From Hyaloscypha bicolor E (taxonomy: Eukaryota > Ascomycota > Leotiomycetes > Helotiales > Hyaloscyphaceae): DNA of 64,000 bases. Under the pieces are notes generated by a model. The model searched no databases. It worked only from the letters and a program-made list of their open reading frames with translations, and was not told the origin of the DNA. The stretch lies in assembly GCF_002865645.1 (NCBI RefSeq), contig NW_020194667.1, positions 124,001 through 188,000 on the forward strand, written 5' to 3'. Within the stretch, counting starts at the first letter, position 1; each line of letters opens with the position of its first letter. Positions 3,251 to 56,090 of the stretch are shown here, piece after piece. Both the position numbers and the translations under genes were made by a program.

Positions 3251-4556
3251 TTAACCCACAAATGGTGGGCATATCATGCTCCTACAGTTCCGCCTGTCTT
3301 TCAGGACTAGCCGTGAAAATTCTTTCCATTTGAAGTACCTAGAAAGGTCTGTGGAGCCTTTTAGGCGTCGACTATAAATGTTGGAGTCCTGGAAAACTGG
3401 TTCGATTCCCCCGCACAAGGAGTGCCATAATGCCACCCATCGTGAACATTTAGTGCTGCCATACTGCTCTTCAGACGAGTCCTCTATACGAGCAAGTCGG
3501 TGAATATCATTAAAGAACTCGGCATTATAATTCTCCGCACTCCGTAAAGCCCGGAAGCTTGTGGTTATAATGACATCGAATATCGTACCCGATATCTTTG
3601 CTTCCCGAGAAGCGATGAGCTTGAAATCAGTTAATATATCCAAGGCCGTATTAAACAGTTTGAGATCGCTCAAACGATTTTCGAGCATAACTCCCCCAAA
3701 ACCCTTAGCCGTCCAATTTGGGATATATGAGGGGAGTTTGGGATTTCGGGGTTCAAACAAATGGCTAAGAAACTCGAGCGTGCCTGTTCGCTCGGTTGAC
3801 TTGATCACAACAGCCTGACATACTTCTTCGGGCGAGAGCGTATAATCCGGTTCCACAAGGTCCGTATATACACCAGTTCCTAAGCCCAGTAGGCCATACA
3901 CTTTGTCCCGTGGATCAGTAACTTCTCGTCCGCAAAAGGTTGCTATTGCAGCGAGTATGCTATATGAGGGTCCTCTGGCCTTGGTGATGAAGTCCAAACG
4001 AGCTGGTTGAGTGAAGGCATCGTGCACGGTCAACCCAAGTTCAGTTGAAATTTGCTCCGAGTCCCATATTGTGCAACCTGCGCAGCACCGAGTCCTGTGA
4101 CTCCAGAAATTTGCTACGGCCATGGACATTGTTTCGCCAGTAATGGAGCTCTTGCTGCATTGGTAGACCAATCTTTGAGAGAGGACGAGTTCCCGAACAG
4201 TCCATGTGCGATTCCACCAAGGGAACCCAAATAAACGGACGAGGTGGCCACGAAGCTCGACAGAACTCAAAGAGAGTCCATTCACAGAAATACTTGGCTC
4301 CAGCAAGGGATCCAAATGAAGAGTTTCATTGCCAGCCAGGCTGGCCAAAAATTCTAGTGCCATATCACTCCCATCCCACCCTTCACCGAGCCAAACCACA
4401 ACTTGTGAAGCTTGACCGTAAATGGATCTCATTCGGGAAACCTGATGCTTTCTTTCCGTTATATCGTCCTGATTTATACAGAGTGCATCGACCTCGCCGA
4501 GAAACCCCAAAAAGTCACCACCCCCGGCAGATCCTCGGCCCCGCCAAGACCCTTGC
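3251..4556 (-). CDS. HET-domain (heterokaryon incompatibility) protein, 5' end unresolved
   Basis: The reading frame ends at TAA 3251-3253. It carries the HET signature VDALCINQDD followed by a QVSRMRSIYGQASQVVVWLG stretch, where the family conserves R-x-Y-x-x-A-x-x-V-x-V-W-L-G, and later FPWWNRTWTVRELVLSQ. HET proteins trigger cell death when incompatible fungi fuse or when foreign signals are sensed. No ATG precedes the motif in this exon. A possible upstream exon ending at 4691 reads ...ATALRRLLRMS, resembling the ALRRLR segment that normally precedes the DALCINQ motif, and a 134-nt GT-AG intron (4557-4690) would keep frame. The N-terminal LSYxWG motif was not found, and any further 5' exon would overlap the neighbouring CorA-like pseudogene. 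The gene may be 5'-truncated. The family call is firm; intactness is not. Confidence 0.65.
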
Positions 4557-4779
4557 CTAAGGTAATTAACGTTTCGACCTCCCCATTCCCCTTACCCCCA
4601 CCACCCAGGGGGCGATAAATACTTTAAAAAAGTAAATATAAGTTTACCTATTACATAGTTTCGTGCTACGCCCATTAGGCTGCTCCTCACCTGCTCATCC
4701 TCAGCAGCCTGCGTAAGGCTGTCGCGCCCGGCGGGCCCGGCTGGTATTTATTGTTTGTGCTCACCGGGTAGAGAAGCGA

Positions 4780-37187: not shown

Positions 37188-40049
37188 ATGGCGTACGCTA
37201 CCAAGTTAGGAGCTCTGACAGAAGAGCTTGTAACCTTGCTCACGTCTACGTCTCTAAAAGTATGTTCGTTCGCTCTGTTTCTTGAATTCTCCAAAGGCGA
37301 ACAGCATCTCCCCAAACGCTCTTTTAATGCTATAAGAAACCCTGGGCTAATAGAAACATAGTCTGACCCTGCGAGATTCAATCTGCATCGAGAGAGCGCT
37401 CTTAGAGCTCTGCGGCATCACAATTTTGCTCGAACAAATCAATTCGATGTCACCAGTCAATTCGATGGCCTGGACGAGAAGTTTCGAGTCCTCCTTGAAG
37501 ACTCATTGGCAGATGCGCTCAAGGAACGGCTGAACATTCTGGCAAAATTGGAGGTCAAATGGGCCCCCGAGATTCTACATCTGCTCCTCGAGCTTTCGGA
37601 TCGACCAGTTGAGAAGTCAAAGCTCGAAAATCTCGATTTTCTGAAAGAACCTGAACCGGATCCAGGACGAACCTTGAAATGGGAAGACCTTATTGCGGAA
37701 GATCCTCTTCTGCGAGATAAAAGTGTTTGGCAGAATGTTGATTTTGGCGCCGAGAGCTCTGATGGAGAGGATGGATTTGAGGACAGTCGATCAGAACTCT
37801 CTGGGTTGACAAACACAACTCTGCAATCGAGCGTAGATGAAGAGTTCAACCAGCGGCCGGAGGACTACGCTATTGATACAATCAACAAGGAGGATTTAGA
37901 TCAACTGCGAGATGCCCAATTTTGGCAGAAGACTCATACTGTGGATGGAGTCCAGTTGGAAACGGTGAAGACGACAGTTACAGAACTTCAGGCTATTCGT
38001 GAAGTCCTCTTCATGCTCTTGGGGTTGCCAACATCGTTATTTGAAATATTACGGGAGAACCTTGTAGTCCCGAAACGGAAGTATGCTCTAAAGCATGCCT
38101 CTGCGGACGCGTTCTTTAAAGTTGGGAGATCATTTTCCGAGCAAGGAACTGCAGTAATGCGTTTGCGGTCATGGGCAGGGCGGGATCAATCAATTCCATT
38201 GATGCAGGTCTTACAAAGCTCCATTCTATGCCGCACGGTCGAATTCGACGCACGAATATCGGACATACAGCAGCGATTTGTCAACCCGGCAAAGGATATT
38301 GTCGTCAGCCTCCTCAGTGTTCAAGCAGAAGTTTCTTCCTATCTGCGGCCTCTGGTTCGACTCTCTGAGATTATCAAGAAACTCGATGACGAGCGATACC
38401 CTCATGCATTTCGTTATCTAGAACTACTCTACGATGAAGCTTGCACATCGCAACTGGCTGGAGATGATGTGATCTACTCATTCATAGGACGAATATTCTT
38501 CGAATGCTTTAAAATATATCTTCGTCCTATCAGGAAATGGATGGAAGATGGGGAATTGACTAAGGGTGACAAAGTCTTTTTTATCTTGGAAGCTTCTGGA
38601 GATATTGAGCCCTCGTTGCTTTGGCAGTCACGATTCAAGATCCGCAGGACTCAAGATGGAGTACTACATGCACCGAGATTTCTTCAAGCAGCAGCTAACA
38701 GGATCTTTACGACCGGAAAAAGTGTTGTGGTCCTCAAGCATCTCAACCAGTTTGATTTTCTCCAATCAGCGAGGGGTGACTTTGAGCTCAGTCTGGATTT
38801 TGATAGCGTCTGCAACCCTGAAGTTCTCGGATACGCTCCTTTCCCGGAGCTCTTTGACTCTGCATTTCATGCTTGGGTAGAGAGCAAACATCACTCTGCT
38901 TCGTCGATGCTTCGCAGAATCTTATTCGACTCCTGTGGCCTCCAAACATCACTTGATGCTCTGTCCCATTTGTACTTCTTCGCCGATGGAACCACTGCCT
39001 CAGTGTTCACTAACTCAATTTTCGACAAGCTCGACACCTTGGACTTATCTTGGAATGATCGCTTCACACTCACCGAATTAGCTCAGAGCACCTTCGGGGC
39101 AATCCCGTCCCTATCCTCAGATCGTCTACGAACGTCCGTCCTCACCCTTTCCCGAAAGCATCAAGACGTTGCGAAATGTAGGAGAACGGTCAAAGTCCTT
39201 TCAATCCTCGAGCTCAAATATCATCTCTCTTGGCCCATCCAGATAATCCTCACCCCAGCGACGATCTCAACCTACAAAAAGATTTTTACCTTCCTCCTAC
39301 AAATTCGCCGAAGCTCCCACATTCTCTCGCGCCAGCGCCTGATTACCGATGGACTCACAAAGTCCAGCAGCTCCGACGAACGTGCACTCTACTACTCATT
39401 ACGAACCCGGCTTCTATGGTTTACCCAAATGTTGTATTACTACCTCACCTCCCTCGTTCTAGAACCCTTATCCCAGAAAATGCGAGCAGAGCTCAAAGCC
39501 ACCGAAGACGTTGATACTATGATCGAAGTCCATGCCTGCTACATCAAAACAACAATTGACCAAGCTCTTCTCGGCAGCAAGCTAGAGCTAATTCATAAAA
39601 CAATTCTTAAAATCCTGGATCTAGGAATCAAACTTGAAGATGCACAAGCGGCGAATGCAGCTGCAAATAAAGAAGCTTTGGAAAAGCAGCAAGAGATGAT
39701 GGATCTTTCGATGGCAAGCTTGGGTCTCCATACACCACAAAGGAAAGGTCGTTCTCAGCCCGTGTTAAAAGAGGCCAAGGAAAAAGCTGAATCAAGCTCC
39801 GATGATGAGGAACAAAATATCGATGTTGATCTTAGCATCCTTTCATCAACGTTTGACGAAAAGGGGGATCTGTTGTATGTTGAGAAATTGAGAAACATGA
39901 AGACGGACTTCGATAGATGGGTACGCTTTGTAGCAAGTGGTTTGAGGGGTGTCGCACGGGCTGGCGGGGGAGGAGAGGCCAGGAGTTGGGACACGCTAGG
40001 AGAGATGTTGGAGAATGGGTTAGATGCTGGTGGGATGGGACATCGATGA
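37188..40049 (+). CDS. Gamma-tubulin complex component, GCP5-like (Spc97/Spc98 family)
   Basis: Two exons, 37188-37259 and 37362-40049 (intron GTATGT...ACATAG), encode 919 residues. Residues ~1-220 are a charged extension with WEDLIAEDPL and FWQ motifs. The conserved GCP N-terminal domain starts near 233 (ELQAIREVLFMLLGLPTSLFE), and the C-terminal gamma-tubulin-binding domain includes IFTFLLQIRRSSHILSRQRL, LWFTQMLYYYLTSLV and DVDTMIEVHACYIKT. An acidic low-complexity insertion lies at ~820-850. It would help assemble the gamma-tubulin ring complex that nucleates microtubules at the spindle pole body. Choice of GCP5 (S. pombe Mod21 type) over GCP4 or GCP6 rests on overall impression and size. 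Confidence 0.85.
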
Positions 40050-40553
40050 ATGTGTGTAGTTGTGGCATCGTGATCACGAATGCCGAACTGGAAGTGATTG
40101 AGGCTCTCATCCTCCCATCATTGCGCGGTCGATGTCGTGCTCATCTGCACCCCGCGTTGGTGGAACGTTTCTCGGCGTCGGCCCCGAAAATTCCCCGCAG
40201 ATTGACGTGAGCCACTTGTTTTCGGGTCTTCTACCTGTGTATATATCTTCAGATGTATATTCAGGAATAATTCACCTTACGGGTCAGCAATTGCCCCGTT
40301 GACCGACGGCCAAGATGAACTCCGGCGACTTCTCTTTGTCAGCTAATCATCATCTTCTCCAGCACGGAGTTCCCGTTTTCGTTCGCCCGTGCTTTGATTT
40401 GTAAGAAGGCCAACCCACTCTTTTGCCCTTTGGCTATCTCTTATCGCTCAATGCACGACAAGTGTACTGTGTTGAGCTTCATCTTTCTCTTTTCACGTTC
40501 CATATTTCCAATTTCATCATAATAAACGCCTCTGCAAGAGAGGAAAGGTCAAG
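40050..40553. other. Intergenic, aminotransferase promoter
   Basis: GC-normal spacer with pyrimidine-rich sequence just before the aminotransferase start; nothing else recognised. Confidence 0.5.
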
Positions 40554-42548
40554 ATGGCAGACTTCGAGTACATTAATCAAGCAGATGCGATGGAATTGAA
40601 AGGGCCTAAGCCCCCGAAGGATTTCAGCTACCATTACTCGCGAGTCACTGCTGCGAGGAAGGAAAGCAGTGTCAAGTCATTCTACAAGTACTTTATGATT
40701 CCGGGAATTAGAAACCTGGCTGGTGGTATGTATGAAGCTCTTCCATGACATGATGGACTTCTCGAACAGCATCCGCCACACACCGCATGGGGAAGCAGGT
40801 AGCTAACAGCACTGCACAGGACTTCCTAATGCCAGTTTATTCCCATTCGATACTCTCGAAGCACAAATCGCACAACCTCAACGATGGAAACCCACTCCCA
40901 TCGACCCCAATGATCCCAACAAAGATCTCTCGGAGCACCTTGCCGCAACCTCCCTCAAGAAAGACAATAAAGATGTATCTGTCGCAGCACATCTTACCGT
41001 CCCACATGCGTCAGCGGTTGCAGACCCCATGCAGAAGATCGACTTGACAACCGCCCTTCAGTACGGTCAAACCCAAGGCTATCCTCCTCTCTACTCCTTT
41101 CTCCGACAATTCACACGAGAGAACTTACAACCAAATATACCATATGAGGGTGGACCAGATATAGCCCTCACCTGCGGAAATACTGATGGGCTATCCAAAA
41201 CACTCGAATGCTTGACCAATGTCTGGAGTGAGGAACGAGATTGGATTCGGGAGAGACCGGCTATCTTGTGCGAGGAGTTCGCATACATGAGTGCCGTACA
41301 GTCGTGCAGACCGCGAGGAATTGCAGTCGTGCCGGTTAAGATGGATATGGAGGGTATGCTTCCAACTGGCTCTGGTGGCTTGGAAGACGTTCTGGAGAAT
41401 TGGGATGACTCCCAGGGGAGGAGACCTCATCTGATGTATACTGTGACGTGAGTGTTACTCTTCGCTCCCAAAATATTCTGCTCACGGATTGAAGGATTGG
41501 ACAAAACCCCACTGGAGGAACACTCTCCGTCCAACGACGAAAGGACATTTATGCTCTCTGCAGCAAGTACGACGTGATGATTATTGAAGATGACCCTTAC
41601 TGGTATCTGCAATTCCCTTCTGCTGCATCACTCGAAGCAGAGGCTCGAAATCTCCCTGCTCCGGCTGCCGCACCGGTGCACACTTTTGAAAAGTCATCAG
41701 GCTACCCGTTCCTTGATAGTCTTGTTCCATCGTACTTGAATATCGATTATGATGGCCGAGTCATTCGTCTGGACACGTTTTCAAAGACTGTTGCTCCGGG
41801 CTGTCGACTGGGATGGATTACGGCCCAACCAGCAATCGTTGAACGCATCGTTCGTATTTCGGAATCATGCACACAGCAACCTTGTGGGTTTGTTCAATCC
41901 ATGATCTCTGAGCTGGTCATGGGCCCTCAGCCCGTCATGTCCGAATTTGTAAAGAAATCCAAAAAGGAGCAGGTTACATTCACAGGATGGAAGACAGATG
42001 GCTGGGTCCGCTGGCTTGCCGGCCTCCGTGGTGTCTACGAGAGACGGATGAACCGGATGTGCTCTGCTCTGGAGGAGGGCCGTTTCCAACTCAAGCAGGG
42101 AACCCCAACTAAGACTTCTGAGTCAGATTGGGCGGTGATCTCCAAGACCAAGATGTACTCATTTGATTGGCCACGAGGAGGGATGTTTGTCTGGATACAG
42201 ATGCATTATGAATCACACCCTCTCTTTGGCCAGATCCCTGGGCCGAAGATGGCACAGCTGTGTTGGATCTTCTTGACTACCACGCCGTATTTGGTGCTGG
42301 CTGCTCCGGGTCTGATATTCAGTCCTACACCAGAAATTATGGAGAAGGAGGGTTGGAAATATTATAGACTTTGTTTTGCTGCTGTTACCGAGGAGGAGGT
42401 TGGCAAGAGCGCCAAACGATTTGCTGAGGGGATCAAGGCGTTCTGGTTGATCAAGGACAAGAAGGAGATGGAGGATATCGATCCCGAGATCAGTGGAAAA
42501 CAGATGGACGGCGAATTGACGGATTTAGGAATGGAATTTGCTTGTTAA
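40554..42548 (+). CDS. Class I/II PLP aminotransferase, Aro8-like
   Basis: Three exons, 40554-40725, 40820-41447 and 41495-42548, encode 617 residues. The fold-type I pattern is complete: GLPN start of the domain at the first junction, LTTALQYGQTQGYPPL, LTCGNTDGLSK, TIGQNPTGGT at ~267-276, IIEDDPYWYLQF at ~296-307, and the PLP lysine at ~364 in LDTFSKTVAPGCRLGW. Relatives are aromatic amino acid / 2-aminoadipate / kynurenine aminotransferases using 2-oxoglutarate. The protein is longer than yeast Aro8 (500 residues) because of inserts after the first exon and before the last third (~430-480). Cytosolic location is likely; no targeting signal is seen. All three junctions restore conserved residues. 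Confidence 0.9.
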
Positions 42549-42941
42549 GATACTTCCTCTTGTTAGATGGGGGTTTGGGATATTCAAGATAGACCGGGAA
42601 GAATACTGTTGATGTCATTACGAATGTAGGACAAACATGTCAATGACGAAGCTTATTAGACGCAAATATAGACAATCTGATCCTTACACATCTACATCAT
42701 CGGTGTCACCTCTCACCTGTAAAGAAAAGGCCTGTCTACCATGTAACCCCAAACATCCGAAGTTCACCCATCGACCCCACATCGCATGCCCCACAAATAC
42801 AATCAGCCTTGCTTCCTCTTCCTCACCACAACGACTACAACCTCTCCTCTGGAGTCCGCAGAACCCCAATTGAGCCTCAATCTCCTCTCTGCAGCTCCTT
42901 TCACTCCCCTGTCTTTCAATTCCCTCAAAGGCACATCGAAA
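42549..42941. promoter_or_regulatory. MTHFR upstream region
   Basis: A spacer of 393 bases between the aminotransferase stop and the MTHFR start. It is in frame with MTHFR from 42786, but those codons give a low-complexity Ser/Thr/Pro/Leu stretch unlike any MTHFR, so they were left out of the gene. Confidence 0.5.
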
Positions 42942-44972
42942 ATGGAGAAAATCACTACCAAGATCGCCGCCCTCCCTCCGGGCACGCCCTACTTCTCCCT
43001 CGAGTTCTTCCCCCCCAAAACCCCCATGGGCTCCTCAAACCTGCGCGCGCGTCTCGACAGGATGTCGCACTCCCTGCGCCCCCTCTTCGTGACTGTTACC
43101 TGGGGCGCCGGCGGCTCAACAGCAGACAGGAGCATGGAGCTCGCGGAGCTGTGTCAGCGGGAGCTGGGCCTCACGACGTGCTTGCACTTGACCTGTACGA
43201 ATATGAAGCGGGACATGGTTGACAGGGCATTAGAAGATGCGAATGCGTTGGGGGTTAGGAATATATTGGCGCTGAGGGGAGATCCGCCGCGGAGCGATTA
43301 TAAGGATGGTAATGGTAATGGCGATGGTGGAGCGGAGGGGGAGTTTGAATGGGCGGTTGATTTGGTGAGGTATATCAGGAAGGGGTATGGGGATTACTTC
43401 TGCATTGGCGTGGCGGCATACCCGGAGGGACATGCGGATGAGAGTCACCCGGAAGGACAGAGCTTGGAGCACGATCTGCCGTATTTGGTAGAGAAGGTCG
43501 GGGCTGGAGCGGACTTCATCATGACGCAGCTTTTCTTTGATATCGACGCATACGATCGGTTTGAGCAGAGATTGAGGGACCATGAGAGTGGTCTTTTCAA
43601 AACGTTGCCGATTATCCCGGGCATGATGCCGATTCAGAGTTACCAGATGATTAAGAGGACGACGAAATTGAGCCATGCAAAGATGCCAAGCAAGATTATG
43701 GAGAGGCTGGATGTGGTGAAGGGCGATGATGAGATGGTTAAGAAGGTCGGGGTGGACATCGTGAGCGAGATCGTCACGCATATCAAGAACTCACCGTCGC
43801 CACAACCAAGGGGTTTCCATTTCTACACTCTCAATCTGGAGAAAGCAGTCTCTTTTATCCTGGAACGAACAAAACTTATCCCCTGCTCACCAACGGATAT
43901 CGAGTGCGCGATCACAGAGGAACCTTTGCCTCTCCCACTCCCTCTACAAACCGTCAGTATCAACGGCCCGCACACAAACGACTCTCGCCACCGCCGTACC
44001 CGCCGCCAAAGCTCAGTGGGCTCAGACCCGCACAACCGAATCATCATTACCGCGCCCCGAACCTCGAACCCCTCCTACGAAGCCACAGGTCTCGAAGCTG
44101 GGGTCCCCGCCGAACCCGTCAACACCCGCGCCAACACGCTCGCTATCTCCGAAGGCGAAGGCTCTCTCGGCCGCGAAGCAACATGGGATGATTTCCCCAA
44201 CGGGCGATGGGGAGACGCCCGAAGTCCCGCTTATGGAGAAATAGATGGTTATGGTGTCAGCCTACACATGTCTATCAACCAAGCGATCAAGCTCTGGGGC
44301 TACCCTACCTCTCGAGACGACATCACAGACCTCTTTTTCCGGCACATCGAAGGTTCTCTCTCCGCAATCCCGTGGAACGAAGAGGGTTTGAATGAAGAAA
44401 CTAACACCATTAAATCCCAACTCTTAAAACTAAACCAGAAAGGATGGTGGACAGTAGCTTCCCAGCCAGCGGTAAACGGCGTGCGGAGTACAGACCAAGT
44501 CTTCGGCTGGGGACCAAGAAATGGCTTTGTGTTCCAGAAAGCATTTGTCGAACTCTTCATCCCATCTTCAGACTGGAAAATCCTGAGGCAAAAACTCTCT
44601 GAAGAAAATATATCGTCGATGGTATCATGGTATGCATCGAACGCCGCAGGCGACTACCTTTCCTCTGATACCTCGTCCTCTTCCTCGTCTTCCAGCAACT
44701 CCGGAAATGGTTCCACGAACGCAGTAACCTGGGGCGCCTTCCCCGGCAAGGAAATCATCACCCCGACGATCATTGAAGAGGTGAGCTTCAGGGCTTGGGC
44801 GGAAGAGGCGTTTGGGATTTGGGGGGAGTGGGGACGGGTATATGGACCAGGAGAGAAGGGGCAGGTTAGTAGGGGGTTAATAGAGGGGATTAAGAGTGAT
44901 GTGTGGTTGGTTAATATTATTCATCACGGGTATGTCGAGAAGGAGGGGTTGTGGAGCATGTTGCTTGATTAA
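42942..44972 (+). CDS. Methylenetetrahydrofolate reductase
   Basis: A single exon of 676 residues. The N-terminal FAD/NAD(P)H TIM-barrel carries YFSLEFFPPKTPMG, LFVTVTWGAGGSTADRS, HLTCTNMKRDM, NILALRGDPPR, FIMTQLFFDIDAY and LPIIPGMMPIQSY. The C-terminal regulatory half carries WGYPTSRDDITDLF, NGFVFQKAFVELF and VWLVNIIHHGYVEKEGLW. The enzyme makes 5-methyl-THF for methionine synthesis. Start ATG 42942 gives MEKITTKIAALPPG, a usual family start. A disordered linker (~residues 330-405) and a Ser-rich insert (TSSSSSSSSNSGNG at ~570-585) lengthen it relative to yeast Met13 (600 residues). Fungi carry two paralogues (Met12 and Met13 type); I lean to Met13 but cannot settle it. Confidence 0.93.
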   Translation: MEKITTKIAALPPGTPYFSLEFFPPKTPMGSSNLRARLDRMSHSLRPLFVTVTWGAGGSTADRSMELAELCQRELGLTTCLHLTCTNMKRDMVDRALEDANALGVRNILALRGDPPRSDYKDGNGNGDGGAEGEFEWAVDLVRYIRKGYGDYFCIGVAAYPEGHADESHPEGQSLEHDLPYLVEKVGAGADFIMTQLFFDIDAYDRFEQRLRDHESGLFKTLPIIPGMMPIQSYQMIKRTTKLSHAKMPSKIMERLDVVKGDDEMVKKVGVDIVSEIVTHIKNSPSPQPRGFHFYTLNLEKAVSFILERTKLIPCSPTDIECAITEEPLPLPLPLQTVSINGPHTNDSRHRRTRRQSSVGSDPHNRIIITAPRTSNPSYEATGLEAGVPAEPVNTRANTLAISEGEGSLGREATWDDFPNGRWGDARSPAYGEIDGYGVSLHMSINQAIKLWGYPTSRDDITDLFFRHIEGSLSAIPWNEEGLNEETNTIKSQLLKLNQKGWWTVASQPAVNGVRSTDQVFGWGPRNGFVFQKAFVELFIPSSDWKILRQKLSEENISSMVSWYASNAAGDYLSSDTSSSSSSSSNSGNGSTNAVTWGAFPGKEIITPTIIEEVSFRAWAEEAFGIWGEWGRVYGPGEKGQVSRGLIEGIKSDVWLVNIIHHGYVEKEGLWSMLLD

Positions 44973-46512: not shown

Positions 46513-49500
46513 TTAAGCTTCCTCTTCGACGTCGTAGTAGAGGCCCTCCTGGTCATCATAGCCATTCATACCGTCATCAGCGTTGCCATTGCCGTTACCA
46601 TTGTGATAGCCATTGTCGACGAATCCATCAGAGCCGTTCTCCATGGACTCCTCGTTGACCGCTCCATCCTCTTCGTCATTCTCCGAAAGCTCAGCATATG
46701 AAGATGGAACAACACGGGAACGGGGGGATGGCTTCTTAACACGGCCGCTCTGGACCTTGTGGAGAGTGGCCTTCTTCTTTGTCGGAGTCTCATCAAAGTT
46801 GCTGCCGGTATCCTCCTCATCGTCGTCTCCCTCGTCCTTCATCTTCTTAGCGGGCGCCTTGCGCTTTCTTGGCGTTTGGTTCTTTTTCGCGGAACCATTC
46901 TCTTCTGTAGTGTTAGCTCGGTTCCAACTTGGATCCTTACGTGCGCGCTCAAAGTATGTGGAGACAGCTTTACCTGTAACGCCCTCGCCGTATTCACGAG
47001 CGATGGCTGTAGAAAAGTTAGCAAAAGTTCAGTCAAAATATGAGTGGTTGATGACAGCTCGGAGGAGAACGAAAGGAAAGACGGAATGAAATGAATCATC
47101 GCAGAGAAGTCGGTGTGGAAGGCAATAGCCTAGGGGAGCGCAAACATGTGTCAGCCTTCATAGCCTCAGCATCCTTCTTGATAGGGCGGAACGTGTGCTC
47201 AAGTGAGGACGGTGTTCTCCCATCATTGAGAAAGCGGGACATAGCTGCAAACCAGTCAATATGTGTCAATCCATCGATCTTGTGCTGTGCTGGGCTGTGC
47301 TGCAAGGAAAAGAAGACAAGAGGTACAGTTCGTTCCACCAGAACCCTTGCCATCCGGCTTGCCCTGAGGATTGACATCAACATTGATATTCTTCGGGTCT
47401 TGGCCTGCTGCCACAGCAGCCATCTGCAACTTTGCACCTGCTTTGTAACGGCGGAACTGCCATTCCAAAGCACCCTTAGTGCAGTCACTACCGATGAACT
47501 TCGCCATCTCTATAATGCTCGTCAATAAGTGGTTGGTTGAACATGACCAAAGAAAACGTGATGTGCTGTGTAAAGAATGGAATTTTCAATCTCTGACTCT
47601 GCTTGCTTCCAATTGTGTTCAATGCAAGGTCCTTTGGATCGCCACCAGAATCAGCGCAAGCACGCTGGCGATCAGCATTAGCCCGAATGGCACGGAGTAC
47701 AAACTGTGTGCCACCTGCGGTGCTGTCGCTGCCGAAGTACTTGCTGATATCTGTGGATCTCATCAATAAGATGTCCAATTGGTGGATCACTGACAAAAAA
47801 ATCGTGCTGGCAAGGAAAGCGTGCAATGGAAAGTGTATCAAGAACTCCCTGACCCTGAGCTCCCTTGCCCTTGACACTGTCAAGATTGACGTCCTTTGGA
47901 TCTAGGCCCGCCGCCTTCATGTCCAACTGGCGCTTGGCAATAGGCCGGAAGCGATCCGTGAACTGGAACTTGATGCCATTGGGTGTGGTATCACTGCCCA
48001 TGATGCTCGAAATCTCTGTGCACTAATCAATATGTGTTTTGGGGTGCTGAAATTGAAAGAACATTCAAGAAATTTAAAAGCAAAGTCTTCTACCATTGCC
48101 ACAGTTCGAACCCTCGTTTGCTCCGCTAAGCATGATGCCCTTGCAGTCAATGCCATTTGCTCGAGCATTCTTGATGAGGTTGACATCGGCCTTGATACGA
48201 GTCGCAAACTGGAACTTGATGCCACCAGCTGTCGCATCGGATCCGAAACACTGTTGAATCTCTGGAAGTAAAATCAATAAACATGCTTGAACATAAGGAA
48301 AACGTGTAAAACAGGATGACTAATGGGGAGCTCTCTAACACTTTCCGCCGCCACCATCCTTGACATTTCCTACCAAAGTGACACCCATTGGGCTTTTGCC
48401 TTTGGCGAGAGCGTCTTTGATGAGCTTGACATTGGGGTTGATGTTGCGGTTAAAGTGTTGATTAAGAGTGCCAGGCTTGAGCTCGGGATCAAGGCACCTA
48501 GCGATTTCTGCAGCAGTCATCAATATATTGATGCACTGGAGCAATAAGCAGACGTAATGAAAACGTGCAGGGTGAAAAATATTGCGTGAAGACAGATGTC
48601 TGACCCTTGGAACCACCGCTGATCTTTGCAATACCAGCCAGGGAGATTTTCTCGGGATCGCCACCGGCCTTCAAGGTCTCCAGAATGAGCTTGACATCAG
48701 GTCTGACAGTGCGGTCGAAGATATTCATGATGGATTTGGCTGTTGCCGATTTGCCGAAGCAACGAGCGATCTCTGCAGGAATACCAATAGCGGCTTCAGA
48801 TACTGCCGACATTGACAAACCACCTAACAGAAGGAAAACTTGCAGTGTGCTGGGGGGATTGAAAGATGCCTAACGCTTTCCCGGCTTGCCATCTCGAACG
48901 TTCTCGATCAGGATGACGCCAACTGGATTTTCACCTCGGGCGCGAGCCTCTTGGACGAGCTTGACATTAGGTGTGATATTGCGAACGAAGTGCTTTTGGA
49001 GAGCACCAGACTTGAGCTCAAGGTCAAAGCACTTGGCAATTTCTGAAGGCAGCATCAATATGAATTCCCAAGATGACGCAGTGCAAGAGCGAAAGCCAAA
49101 AGGAAAACGTGAAGTGTGCAAGATGGATTGTGGTGAATTGTCTGACCCTTTCCAGCTCTATCAGATCTGACACCTTCGATCAAGATCACCGAATCGGGAT
49201 CTTCACCTCGGCCGACAGCTTCCTTCAAGAGCTTGGTATTAGGACTGATATCACGACCCAAATGGTGCATGAGACTCGGCTTCGTGAGGCGGCTTCCGTA
49301 GAATTTGACAATCTCTATGGCGATCATCAACAGCAACCCCAATGAAAGAATCATCAAAAACTTCGACGCAAGGAAAACGTGCAATGTGTATAGGATGTGA
49401 CATGGTGTGCGCTCTGACCCTTGCCGATTTTGCCGTCCCGAACATTCTCCATCATGGTAAGATCCTTAGGATCATCGCCACGAGCGAGAGCGTCGCGAAT

Positions 49501-50841
49501 AGACTTAACGTTGGGTCGGATGTCTCTCTTGAAATGATTGTCGAGACCAAACTTCGTGCAGTTGGTGCCATAGCACTTGGCGATCTCTGGAGGCCAAATC
49601 AATATGAGATCCACCGGCGATGCTCAACTCGTGTAAAGACGAAAGGAAAACGTGTTATGTGCTTATGGGGAGATCGCTGAAGGGTCTACGACAACCGCCA
49701 GCCCGCAAGGCGTTGATCTCAATGTCTTTGGTCTCCGCCTTGCGCGAGTGCCTCGTTGATCTGTCGGACACCTTTCTTGACCCGAGCAAACATGACATTT
49801 TGGATGGCTTTGTATCAGCATCAGAGGCTGAAACAACAAGCCACACCAGACTCATAAAGACTGCAGCGCAGATGCTTAAACAAAAGGAAATGGGTTGTGT
49901 GAAAAAGGCAGAAATTTTAAAAGGTCTACCCGAGGCTCCCTTTCCGCCAGTCCAGAAAGTACCCAAAAGGTTAACATCCTTGGGATCGCCACCTTGATCC
50001 AAGGCATCGGTGATGGCCTTGACACCTGGGCGGACTTGTCGCTTCCAGACACTTTCAATGGCGGATTTGGTGGCATCAGACCCAAAATATCTAGCAATCT
50101 CTGCACTACATATCAATAAAGACTTCTTCTTTGAGGAGTGCTGTTCAAAATCCCAAAACGTAAGGAAATGTGTAAAGTGCTTTGAAGTATTTGGGGAAAC
50201 ACGCCGGACACCTTTCGGAAAACCAGCCCCTTTTGTTTCAGCGCCAATGGGAAGCGTCTTCGGATCAATGCCCTTGGCAATCGAGTCATTGATCAACTTG
50301 GCATCTCTCTTGAGAGGGCGGAATCGATTCTCGAGAGCAGATGCAGTGCAGTCACTACCGAACCTAGCAGCAATGTCTGACAGATATCAACGGAGGCCAA
50401 CAACATCTCGCAAAACGGAAAGAAACGGTGCTCTGTGCAAATGACAAGAAACAATGAATATTTTGCCCTTGTTACCTTGGACTTTGGAAGGAGCATCGAT
50501 CAATTCAACTTTGAAGGGATCGAGGCCAGCCTCGACTGCATCTCTCAGGAGCTTGGCGTTCTTGTGCATGAGACTGCATCTGTCCCAACAAGATTTGTAT
50601 TTAACTCCATCTCCCCAGAAACGGGCGACCTCTAGATTCGCCAGCATTATCAGGAACCGCAATTTTTGAGTTCACAAACTAATGAGATTGACTGAAGGAA
50701 ACGATGAGATGGGAGGATGGCTGAGCGAAGAGATAAGGAAAGGTGTCACATACCGTTATAGTCTAGCTTCAGACCGGGGTGAGCGGCAAGGATGGCCGAA
50801 AGAAGGCGAACAGAGCTCTCGTACGACTTCCAGTTGGGCAT
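46513..50841 (-). CDS. Putative nuclear Myb/SANT-like protein with 14 tandem alternative cassette exons
   Basis: Exon 1, complement(50754-50841), encodes MPNWKSYESSVRLLSAIL... (29 residues). The last exon, complement(46513-47006), starts IAREYGEGVTGKAV, then a basic stretch (TPRKRKAPAKK, NLS-like) and a long acidic Asn/Gly-rich tail. Between them lie 14 exons (listed separately) with the pattern E-I-A-x-x-F-G-x-D-x-T-x-x-A-I-x-x-x-F-R at the start, as in small fungal Myb/SANT-like domains. All exons are phase 1-1, so any subset keeps frame apart from junction codons. Exon 1 joined directly to the last exon gives 193 residues; one cassette gives ~226-254. Strict inclusion of all 14 meets TAG at the cassette 9/10 junction. 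Function is inferred as DNA or chromatin binding. Which exons are joined is unknown without transcripts. Confidence 0.8.
47146..47244 (-). repeat. Cassette exon 14, short form (33 codons)
   Basis: Reads AMSRFLNDGRTPSSLEHTF, then RPIKKDAEAMKADT, the form closest to ordinary single-domain fungal relatives. It lacks the DPK tail of the others. Acceptor GCAG, donor GTTTGC, last base T. Confidence 0.8.
47327..47509 (-). repeat. Cassette exon 13 (61 codons)
   Basis: Reads EMAKFIGSDCTKGALEWQF, then QMAAVAAGQDPKNI. Acceptor ATAG. Donor GTACCT is preferred (last base T); GTTCTG 18 bases earlier keeps the same phase. Confidence 0.82.
47598..47750 (-). repeat. Cassette exon 12 (51 codons)
   Basis: Reads DISKYFGSDSTAGGTQFVL, then RANADRQRACADSGGDPKDL. 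Acceptor ACAG, donor GTCAGA, last base A. Confidence 0.88.
47854..48015 (-). repeat. Cassette exon 11 (54 codons)
   Basis: Reads EISSIMGSDTTPNGIKFQF, then RPIAKRQLDMKAAGLDPKDV. It shares GIKFQF with cassette 10. Acceptor ACAG, donor GTCAGG, last base G. Confidence 0.88.
48094..48261 (-). repeat. Cassette exon 10 (56 codons)
   Basis: Reads EIQQCFGSDATAGGIKFQF, then KADVNLIKNARANGIDCKGI. Acceptor CCAG, donor GTAGAA, last base G. Confidence 0.88.
48340..48507 (-). repeat. Cassette exon 9 (56 codons), ends in T
   Basis: Reads EIARCLDPELKPGTLNQHF, then NPNVKLIKDALAKGKSPMGV. Acceptor GCAG, donor GTTAGA. The last base is T, so joining to a following exon that begins AG makes TAG. Confidence 0.88.
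48605..48772 (-). repeat. Cassette exon 8 (56 codons)
   Basis: Reads EIARCFGKSATAKSIMNIF, then RPDVKLILETLKAGGDPEKI. Acceptor GCAG, donor GTCAGA, last base G. Confidence 0.88.
48875..49042 (-). repeat. Cassette exon 7 (56 codons)
   Basis: Reads EIAKCFDLELKSGALQKHF, then TPNVKLVQEARARGENPVGV. It is close to cassette 9. Acceptor TCAG, donor GTTAGG, last base C. Confidence 0.88.
49147..49314 (-). repeat. Cassette exon 6 (56 codons)
   Basis: Reads EIVKFYGSRLTKPSLMHHL, then SPNTKLLKEAVGRGEDPDSV. Acceptor ATAG, donor GTCAGA, last base G. Confidence 0.88.
49419..49586 (-). repeat. Cassette exon 5 (56 codons)
   Basis: Reads EIAKCYGTNCTKFGLDNHF, then RPNVKSIRDALARGDDPKDL. Acceptor CCAG, donor GTCAGA, last base G. 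Confidence 0.88.
49690..49827 (-). repeat. Cassette exon 4, frame-scrambled copy (46 codons)
   Basis: It starts SDADTK and ends KDIEINALRAGG in the normal frame, but the middle matches the domain only in another frame (AIQNVMFARVKKGVRQINEA). Two compensating indels therefore changed the central residues while keeping the exon open. The usual EIAxxFG start is missing. Acceptor TCAG (an earlier GCAG is also possible), donor GTAGAC, last base C. Confidence 0.6.
49930..50100 (-). repeat. Cassette exon 3 (57 codons)
   Basis: Reads EIARYFGSDATKSAIESVW, then RPGVKAITDALDQGGDPKDV. Acceptor GCAG, donor GTAGAC, last base G. Confidence 0.88.
50212..50376 (-). repeat. Cassette exon 2 (55 codons)
   Basis: Reads DIAARFGSDCTASALENRF, then RPLKRDAKLINDSI and DPKTLP. 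Acceptor TCAG, donor GTGTCC, last base G. Confidence 0.85.
50476..50631 (-). repeat. Cassette exon 1 (52 codons)
   Basis: Reads EVARFWGDGVKYKSCWDRC at the start and DPFKVELIDAPSKVQ at the end. Acceptor CTAG, donor GTAACA, last base G. It is the most diverged copy in the helix region. Confidence 0.8.
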
Positions 50842-52561: not shown

Positions 52562-53530
52562 TCAATCTCCCAAGTACGCATCCTTTTCTCCAGCCGGTGT
52601 CCTCGCCCTCGGCCCATTCGCATGCCCATTCATCCTCATCTCCATCCCTAATCCCTGAGCATGCTCTTTCACCATCTTGCCCGCTTCCCCATCCCCATAC
52701 ACAAAATACTGGCCGCCTAAGAACAAATCACAGCACATCTGGAATATGCCACACAGCTTGAACGTCCAGGGTATCTCACTGGTCGCCGTAAAGAACCAAA
52801 ACATCTTCATGATATCACCAGCAATCCAGTTTGCGATAACGGAGACACGAAACCCTTTGCAGGAGCGAGACTTGTAGTTGGACAGGATTTGCGGGAGCGG
52901 GAGTGTGGCTTCGACGGAGAGGCCGATGGCGCCGAGGCCTGCGGAGTAGAGGGCGTAAAGGGTTGGAATAGGGGAGATCAGGAGTTCGAGCGCGACCAGG
53001 GAGATGAAGAGGTAGAGGAGGAACTGCCAGTATCTGCATGAAAATCCGTTAGCATTCGCTCGCAGATTCTGTGCGGGCTTGGAATCAACTCACGGTTTAT
53101 GGGACCGCCATTGCCAGAAATTATACGGTCTTGGAATGTCGAATTCTCTGTCTCTTGCCCCGGCGAACGGGATTGCTGCTTCTCCTCCCTTCGACGAAGG
53201 GGACGGTCGGTGGTCGAGGGCTATTTTCAATAGCACCAATTGAATCACAATCATAATGAACGCTTGTATGAGCAAAGCTGTATCGAATCTCGCGCCTGGA
53301 TAGTAGAACACTCTATAATGTTCCCATCAGCAAAGGTTGGTTCGGGAAGCCGGAAGTGCAGCATACTTCAGCATCGATGCAACCAGCATAATCAACGGGA
53401 TATCTAACGAAAATCCAGCGCTAGATTTCGCCCGGTGCATCGAATACGTCTGGTCGGCGTAGGAAGTGATGGGCGAAATGATGATGAAGATAGGGGCGAC
53501 GAAGCCCGTTATGAAGGACACGAGGCCCAT
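52562..53530 (-). CDS. PQ-loop repeat membrane protein (Any1/PQLC1-like)
   Basis: Three exons, complement(52562-53033), (53094-53312) and (53367-53530), encode 284 residues with about seven hydrophobic segments. The first PQ-loop repeat is degenerate (PITSYADQTYSM...KSSAGFS at ~19-45); the second is clear (LPLPQILSNYKSRSCKGF at ~171-189). The size and the YADQ/KSSAGFS pattern fit the SLC66A2/PQLC1 and yeast Any1 group, linked to lipid asymmetry and endosome-Golgi membranes. The hydrophilic tail of ~50 residues is probably cytosolic. All splice sites are canonical and restore frame. Its start codon lies 381 bases from a 9 kb transposon that has displaced whatever was upstream. Confidence 0.87.
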
Positions 53531-55652: not shown

Positions 55653-56090
55653 TTAATACCAAGAGCTTCTATTCTCTACTAATACCTTCTCTATTAATAC
55701 CTTTATTAATACCTTTATTAATACCTTTATTAATACTAAAAGCTAGTATCTGACTGCCTTATAACCTTCCTTTCCTCCTCTGAACTCCTCCTTACCCCTT
55801 TTCCAAACTCCTCTTTCTTATCCCTCTTTCTTTAATACTTCTTCCATTAATACCAAGAGCTAGTATCTAACTATCTTATAACCTTCCTCTCCTCCTCCGA
55901 ACCCCTTCTTACCCCTCCTCCGAACCCCTTTTCCTTACCCCTCCTCTTTTAATACTTCTTCTATTAATACCAAGAGCTGGTATCTGACTGCCTTATAACC
56001 TTCCTCTCCTCCTCCGAACCCCTCTAAACCCCTCCTCCGAACCCCTCCTCCTTTAATACTTCTACTAATAATACTAAAAGCTGGTACCTG
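55653..56090. repeat. 117-bp minisatellite inside the TIR element
   Basis: Units beginning aatacYaaRagctRgta start at 55732, 55849, 55966 and 56070, with spacings of 117, 117 and 104 bases and a partial unit at 55653. Each unit holds tctgactgccttataacc followed by ctcctccgaacccc. Confidence 0.85.

Follow-up and report, generated by a model that had tools for sequence, protein, structure and literature searches.

How many of its cassettes does a gene with a tandem array of similar exons place in one transcript: all of them in order, a few, one or none? The question is raised by a gene on the minus strand (46513-50841, about 4.3 kb in all) of the window, by which is meant the whole 64,000-nucleotide stretch of Hyaloscypha bicolor E DNA analysed here. 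The answer preferred here, with a probability of about 0.7, is that exon 1 is joined to the last exon either directly or by way of a single cassette out of 14 (one of which is decayed); the gene would thereby offer some 13 interchangeable half-domains, or none.

Anatomy of the array

The layout can be read directly from the DNA. All features lie on the minus strand, with exon boundaries that were set by eye and then tested computationally. Exon 1 (50754-50841) is constant, encodes MPNWKSYESSVRLLSAILAAHPGLKLDYN plus one base, and is followed by the donor GTATGT; the last exon (46513-47006) is likewise constant. Between them stand the 14 cassettes of the original prediction, a number that a recount confirmed. 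The first four are C1 (50476-50631, 156 nt), C2 (50212-50376, 165 nt), C3 (49930-50100, 171 nt) and the decayed C4 (49690-49827, 138 nt). Six of exactly 168 nt follow: C5 (49419-49586), C6 (49147-49314), C7 (48875-49042), C8 (48605-48772), C9 (48340-48507, with T as its final base) and C10 (48094-48261). The array closes with C11 (47854-48015, 162 nt), C12 (47598-47750, 153 nt), C13 (47327-47509, 183 nt) and the short C14 (47146-47244, 99 nt). The eight cassettes that are not 168 nt long thus span 99-183 nt, and 12 of the 14 fall within 138-171 nt. Every cassette length is divisible by three, with phase 1 on either side, start-to-start spacing is 241-276 nt, and the introns measure 78-139 nt; the phase, the six lengths of 168 nt and the spacing, all predicted at the outset, hold on recomputation. 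Tandem arrangement, length, frame and homology agree with what defines a cluster of mutually exclusive exons (PMC3228551), except for the decayed frame of C4, which has stops in the homologous frame and whose open frame is non-homologous. As a separate observation, C2, C3 and C4 together with two introns form a single open frame of 243 codons (49655-50386, minus strand), within which introns 3 and 4 are free of stops.

A predicted domain divided between exons

The original prediction had each cassette encode a full or near-full Myb/SANT-like domain, and had counted 14 putative DNA-binding variants if one cassette were chosen per transcript. A set of 14 full-domain variants does not suit the locus. 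Helix 1 lies in exon 1, each cassette carries helices 2-3 (plus linker), and helices 2-3 recur at the start of the last exon, ahead of a basic and acidic tail and the stop. Each cassette is therefore half of a predicted three-helix Myb-like domain, to which exon 1 contributes the missing part; one of the cassettes is decayed, the last exon adds a half-domain of its own, and a form with no cassette exists. An AlphaFold model of a relative, P0067 (exon 1, one cassette and the last exon), places helices at residues 4-20, 28-35 and 41-64 with pLDDT of about 80, and its tail is of low confidence.

Membership of a known family is less distinct. The nearest is Myb_DNA-bind_8 (PF22980), which the zero-cassette form matches over helices 1-3 at 11.6 bits where the cut-off is 27, and which finds no match in two one-cassette forms of the window gene. 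Relatives match this family in 5 of 24 cases (best E 0.0016, E-values being the only scores), and six further relatives gave no match above the cut-off in the family search. Myb-like Pfam scores, where given, all lie below the curated cut-off for Myb_DNA-bind_8 or Myb-SANT membership, and structure searches returned no significant solved-structure match to the predicted three-helix fold; binding to DNA is therefore a prediction. The weak match over helices 1-3 of the zero-cassette form is a likeness to Myb_DNA-bind_8 proteins, from which the gene differs in its sub-threshold score and in a domain split over two exons, the second half being swappable.

Clear Myb_DNA-bind_8 members do occur at other places in the same genome. 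On contig C5 (locus L006, about 1673000-1675700), at least four short open frames in tandem have Myb_DNA-bind_8 matches; this tandem group is a set of separate small genes and not an exon array. On contig C46, four more matches lie inside about 29 kb (885161-913700).

Which joins the reading frame allows

Exon 1 ends in G, and its junction with a cassette encodes Glu or Asp in 12 of the 14 cases and Ala in the other two. All 14 single-cassette joins give open products, as does the join of exon 1 straight to the last exon; since the last exon starts with CC, no cassette can form a stop with it. Joining all cassettes has a different result. A TAG arises where C9 meets C10 and stops the product at residue 520 of 939, so that the repeats do not share one open frame, as a constitutive tandem-repeat protein would have them do. 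Such a protein, of about 900 residues and with every cassette spliced in order, would sit well with the single phase of all cassettes and with the short introns of 78-139 nt, but it is contradicted by this stop, by the lack of helix 1 in the later repeats and by the decay of C4. Exactly the same junction is dropped in the gene model of Hyaloscypha finlandica, which is without C4, the final part of C9 and the first part of C10; the C9/C10 gap is what a predictor forced round a stop would produce.

The stop is a local feature. Among the 91 joins of one cassette to a later one, three create a stop, all from C9 (TAG with C10, C11 or C13), and 88 do not, so the frame excludes the all-in join and still allows two-cassette forms.

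Intron-free sequences from relatives

Evidence on the number of cassettes comes from unannotated (environmental) proteins of relatives; the label "lgn" we take to be Logan. Among 18 of them that contain exon 1, 12 continue into the intron, which means that the gene calling of these sources ignores introns; the six that pass from exon 1 onward without an intron are accordingly taken as derived from spliced RNA, although they are known as proteins. Cassettes in these short relatives were counted by eye from the sequences. Three of the six have one cassette (P0044, P0065, P0067), three have none (P0057, P0059, P0061), and none has two or more. P0059 and P0067 are particularly instructive, since they have in common the 29 residues at the start, which correspond precisely to exon 1, end in an identical stretch of 150 and differ only in between: P0067 has one cassette and is without the helix-3 stretch of the last exon, and P0059 has no cassette and keeps that stretch. 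The pair has the look of two isoforms from a single gene. The P0067 cassette has 49 of 55 positions identical to number 7 among the 16 of a gene model from Cadophora, so that cassettes on either side would have been skipped. Its best match in the window is C8, and its end and its junction with the last exon agree with the boundary assigned to C8.

The idea that one cassette is chosen per transcript is thus upheld in one part and amended in another. It is favoured by relatives with one cassette (three of six) and none with more, and by the TAG between C9 and C10; the other three of the six contain no cassette. Short annotated models accord in part, with one cassette in P0049, P0054 and P0084, none in P0056, P0060 and P0076, and two in P0020, P0023 and P0024. 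Because zero-cassette forms exist, the rule would be at most one cassette and not exactly one, the standard set in PMC6071210.

The same six sequences bear on each competing account. Annotated Helotiales models with many cassettes, for example P0001 (852 aa), P0002 (1311 aa) and P0003 (1248 aa), speak for the constitutive repeat protein and, at face value, disagree with a choice of one or none; not one of the six spliced sequences, by contrast, carries two cassettes, and together with the stop and the missing helix 1 this leaves the constitutive protein quite improbable. A second account has the cassettes as optional exons, included in any number, often one or two, by loose skipping with no strict exclusivity. 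It draws on the annotated two-cassette models P0020, P0023 and P0024 and on the 88 of 91 stop-free pairs, but two cassettes are found in none of the six spliced sequences, and a second cassette would, judging from the model of P0067, be without a helix 1; we regard it as unlikely, if somewhat less so than the constitutive protein. Finally, the product of exon 1 and the last exon might be the real one and the cassettes mere remnants that duplication left behind in a big intron. The zero-cassette sequences P0057, P0059 and P0061 would be expected on that account, as would the annotated zero-cassette models P0056 (Botrytis cinerea B05.10), P0060 (Pseudogymnoascus destructans, where it is named a variant) and P0076, and C4 has indeed decayed. 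Against this, 13 of the 14 cassettes are open, homologous and in phase, they have reciprocal best matches across Helotiales, and spliced one-cassette sequences are known. Remnants of that kind therefore seem very improbable, the least credible of the accounts.

The last exon and its candidate internal intron

Under the preferred choice of at most one cassette, the half-domain at the start of the last exon takes on a particular role. A candidate alternative intron of 69 nt (46905-46973, minus strand; GTAAAG ... GCTAAC ... TACAG) lies in frame within this exon and encodes the default helix 3. Here it has full splice signals and an intact frame; its kept and removed forms are known from relatives alone. 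The helix-3 stretch, scored by eye, is absent in all three intron-free sequences with a cassette (P0044, P0065, P0067), and in the zero-cassette sequences it is kept in P0057 and P0059 and absent in P0061. These few data suggest that cassette use goes with removal of the default half-domain from the last exon.

The order of events may then be put as follows. Constant exon 1, with helix 1, would join at most one cassette, with predicted helices 2-3, and then the last exon. Were no cassette taken, the last exon would supply its default helices 2-3; were one taken, the 69-nt in-frame intron with default helix 3 would likely be removed, leaving one domain per protein. An internal in-frame intron of a coding exon is known as an exitron, and the element resembles one in its 69-nt length, frame and full splice signals, kept in P0059 and absent in P0067. 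It differs in being apparently tied to cassette use and in removing a default half-domain, a tie that we infer from six sequences.

Splice signals and RNA pairing

The splice sites are unequal in a way that could discourage cassettes from joining each other. The donor consensus GTRNGT fits exon 1, none of the 14 cassettes and seven of eight donors from neighbouring genes (Fisher p about 5e-5 for 0/14 against 7/8, on a small reference set picked by eye). In relatives where exon 1 reads into the intron, its donor translates as GK, GM or GT in 11 of 12 sequences and as GQ in one, and C2 donors translate as GQ (GTCAR) in nine sequences, by an eye count, among 42 rows, the majority of which do not extend into the intron. 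Branch sites are divided similarly. Introns before C2-C14 have TTGAT or TTGAC near the acceptor in 11 of 13 cases and no YTRAY site there in two; the intron before C1 has CTGAT and that before the last exon CTAAC. This asymmetry, which is present in the sequence itself, is the likely basis of the choice: a strong constant donor and acceptor would face cassettes with off-consensus donors and mostly TTGAT or TTGAC branch sites, such that strong-weak pairing (exon 1 to a cassette, a cassette to the last exon) would be favoured and weak-weak joining of neighbouring cassettes disfavoured. For exon 1 to reach a late cassette, an intron of more than 3 kb would be required, which is long for a fungus and counts against exon choice.

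Pairing between RNA segments could offer another means of exclusion. The best mean docking/selector duplex was -15.7 kcal/mol, where five shuffles, taken at a coarser step, gave -13.1 to -15.1 kcal/mol, and donor pairing energy was -7.7 against -7.6 in controls; these scans found no docking site. Competing docking and selector sequences of the Dscam exon 6 type are thus not seen here, and such pairing is not required of every cluster. The introns do share a mid-intron element near TGCACGTTTTCCTT, on the minus strand within 47549-49656 (starts at 49656, 49383, 49113, 48844, 48569, 48308, 47825 and 47562). Eight of the 15 introns match it at 11 or more of 14 positions, where 200 mononucleotide shuffles gave a mean of 0.17 and a maximum of 2, the motif having been derived from the very introns on which it was scored. 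It may have been inherited simply with the duplications.

Conservation of the array

A search of the 82-Mb, 76-contig assembly with C5 gave 10 matches (E up to 10), all inside this locus and with E down to 1.6e-11, a likeness beyond chance, as are the reciprocal best matches in other species described below; exon 1 and the last exon found strong matches in this gene only, and two more (E 0.017 and 0.095) contain stops. Between cassettes, dN/dS was computable for 54 of 78 pairs and below 1 in 51 of the 54, values that are indicative only, as dS is near saturation.

Beyond this genome, protein searches recovered the gene from Helotiales, from further Leotiomycetes and, as two models (P0109, P0113), from Sordariomycetes. 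The closest model found is that of Hyaloscypha finlandica (Helotiales), identical at 803 of 938 positions with gaps counted. Nineteen gene models (18 from one protein search plus P0019) have 7-20 cassette-like matches each, that of the last exon included where present. Reciprocal best matches of the window cassettes are widest for C2 (17 of the 19 models), followed by C1, C10 and C11 (15 each), and occur in three for C7 and C9. Cassette order is largely kept across the models; Lachnellula, Stipitochalara and Rhynchosporium are among the exceptions. Among 206 cassette segments, the nearest relative is a segment of another model in 194 (a figure inflated by the close pairs of two Botrytis, two Monilinia and two Diplocarpon) and of the same model in 12, from which it follows that the array predates these species and that many of its members have been separately maintained. 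A wider proposal would extend exon choice to a Dscam-like system throughout the Leotiomycetes that swaps the second half of a DNA-binding domain, with an ancient array whose largest versions have about 20 cassettes, a default half-domain excised upon choice and exactly one complete domain in every protein; it is offered tentatively, at somewhat less than even odds.

Relation to known systems

The nearest parallel lies in the exon 4, 6 and 9 clusters of Dscam1, which are likewise tandem, homologous internal exons of one phase; here the six spliced sequences from relatives contain one or none. The variable exons of Dscam1 also encode half-domains. The differences are considerable, in that this array is fungal, has introns of about 100 nt and encodes a predicted nuclear-type domain, whereas Dscam1 is a surface receptor; moreover, docking/selector pairing was not found here, a zero-cassette form exists and the last exon holds a default half-domain. 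Clusters from which one of many exons is taken are described for arthropod Dscam1 and other animal genes, and weaker splice sites of the alternative exons are part of the published Dscam1 model (PMC6071210).

For fungi, a study of human pathogens among them puts mutually exclusive exons at less than 0.2% and suggests that they may have no relevance in this group (PMC6176087). Higher counts exist. In Sclerotinia sclerotiorum, which belongs to the order of the fungus studied here, they make up 3.0% of differential splicing events (PMC9597501, the main text of which does not name the Sclerotinia gene sscle_01g004340). For Schizophyllum, 171 genes with mutually exclusive exons are given under a pairwise definition, mostly in UTRs (PMC5034255). 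Among the literature matches listed, which take in a minority of subscription papers, none names a comparable tandem array of cassettes in a fungus.

The implications would reach beyond this gene. With a conserved array and with one- and zero-cassette intron-free sequences, fungi would provide a small, tractable setting for studying how a spliceosome chooses one exon among many. If such choice is true, many gene models at the locus are wrong, because predictors string the alternatives together; if the domain binds DNA, about a dozen specificities would come from one gene.

Genomic surroundings

The neighbours of the gene are ordinary: 37362-44972 and 52562-53089 hold a GCP5/Mod21-type gamma-tubulin complex component, a class I/II aminotransferase, a methylenetetrahydrofolate reductase and a PQ-loop protein. 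Farther off, a HET (heterokaryon incompatibility) domain protein is encoded at 3251-4591 on the minus strand, and a tandem repeat at 55729-56053 (117-nt unit, 2.8 copies, 86% matches) adjoins short TATTAATACCTT repeats.
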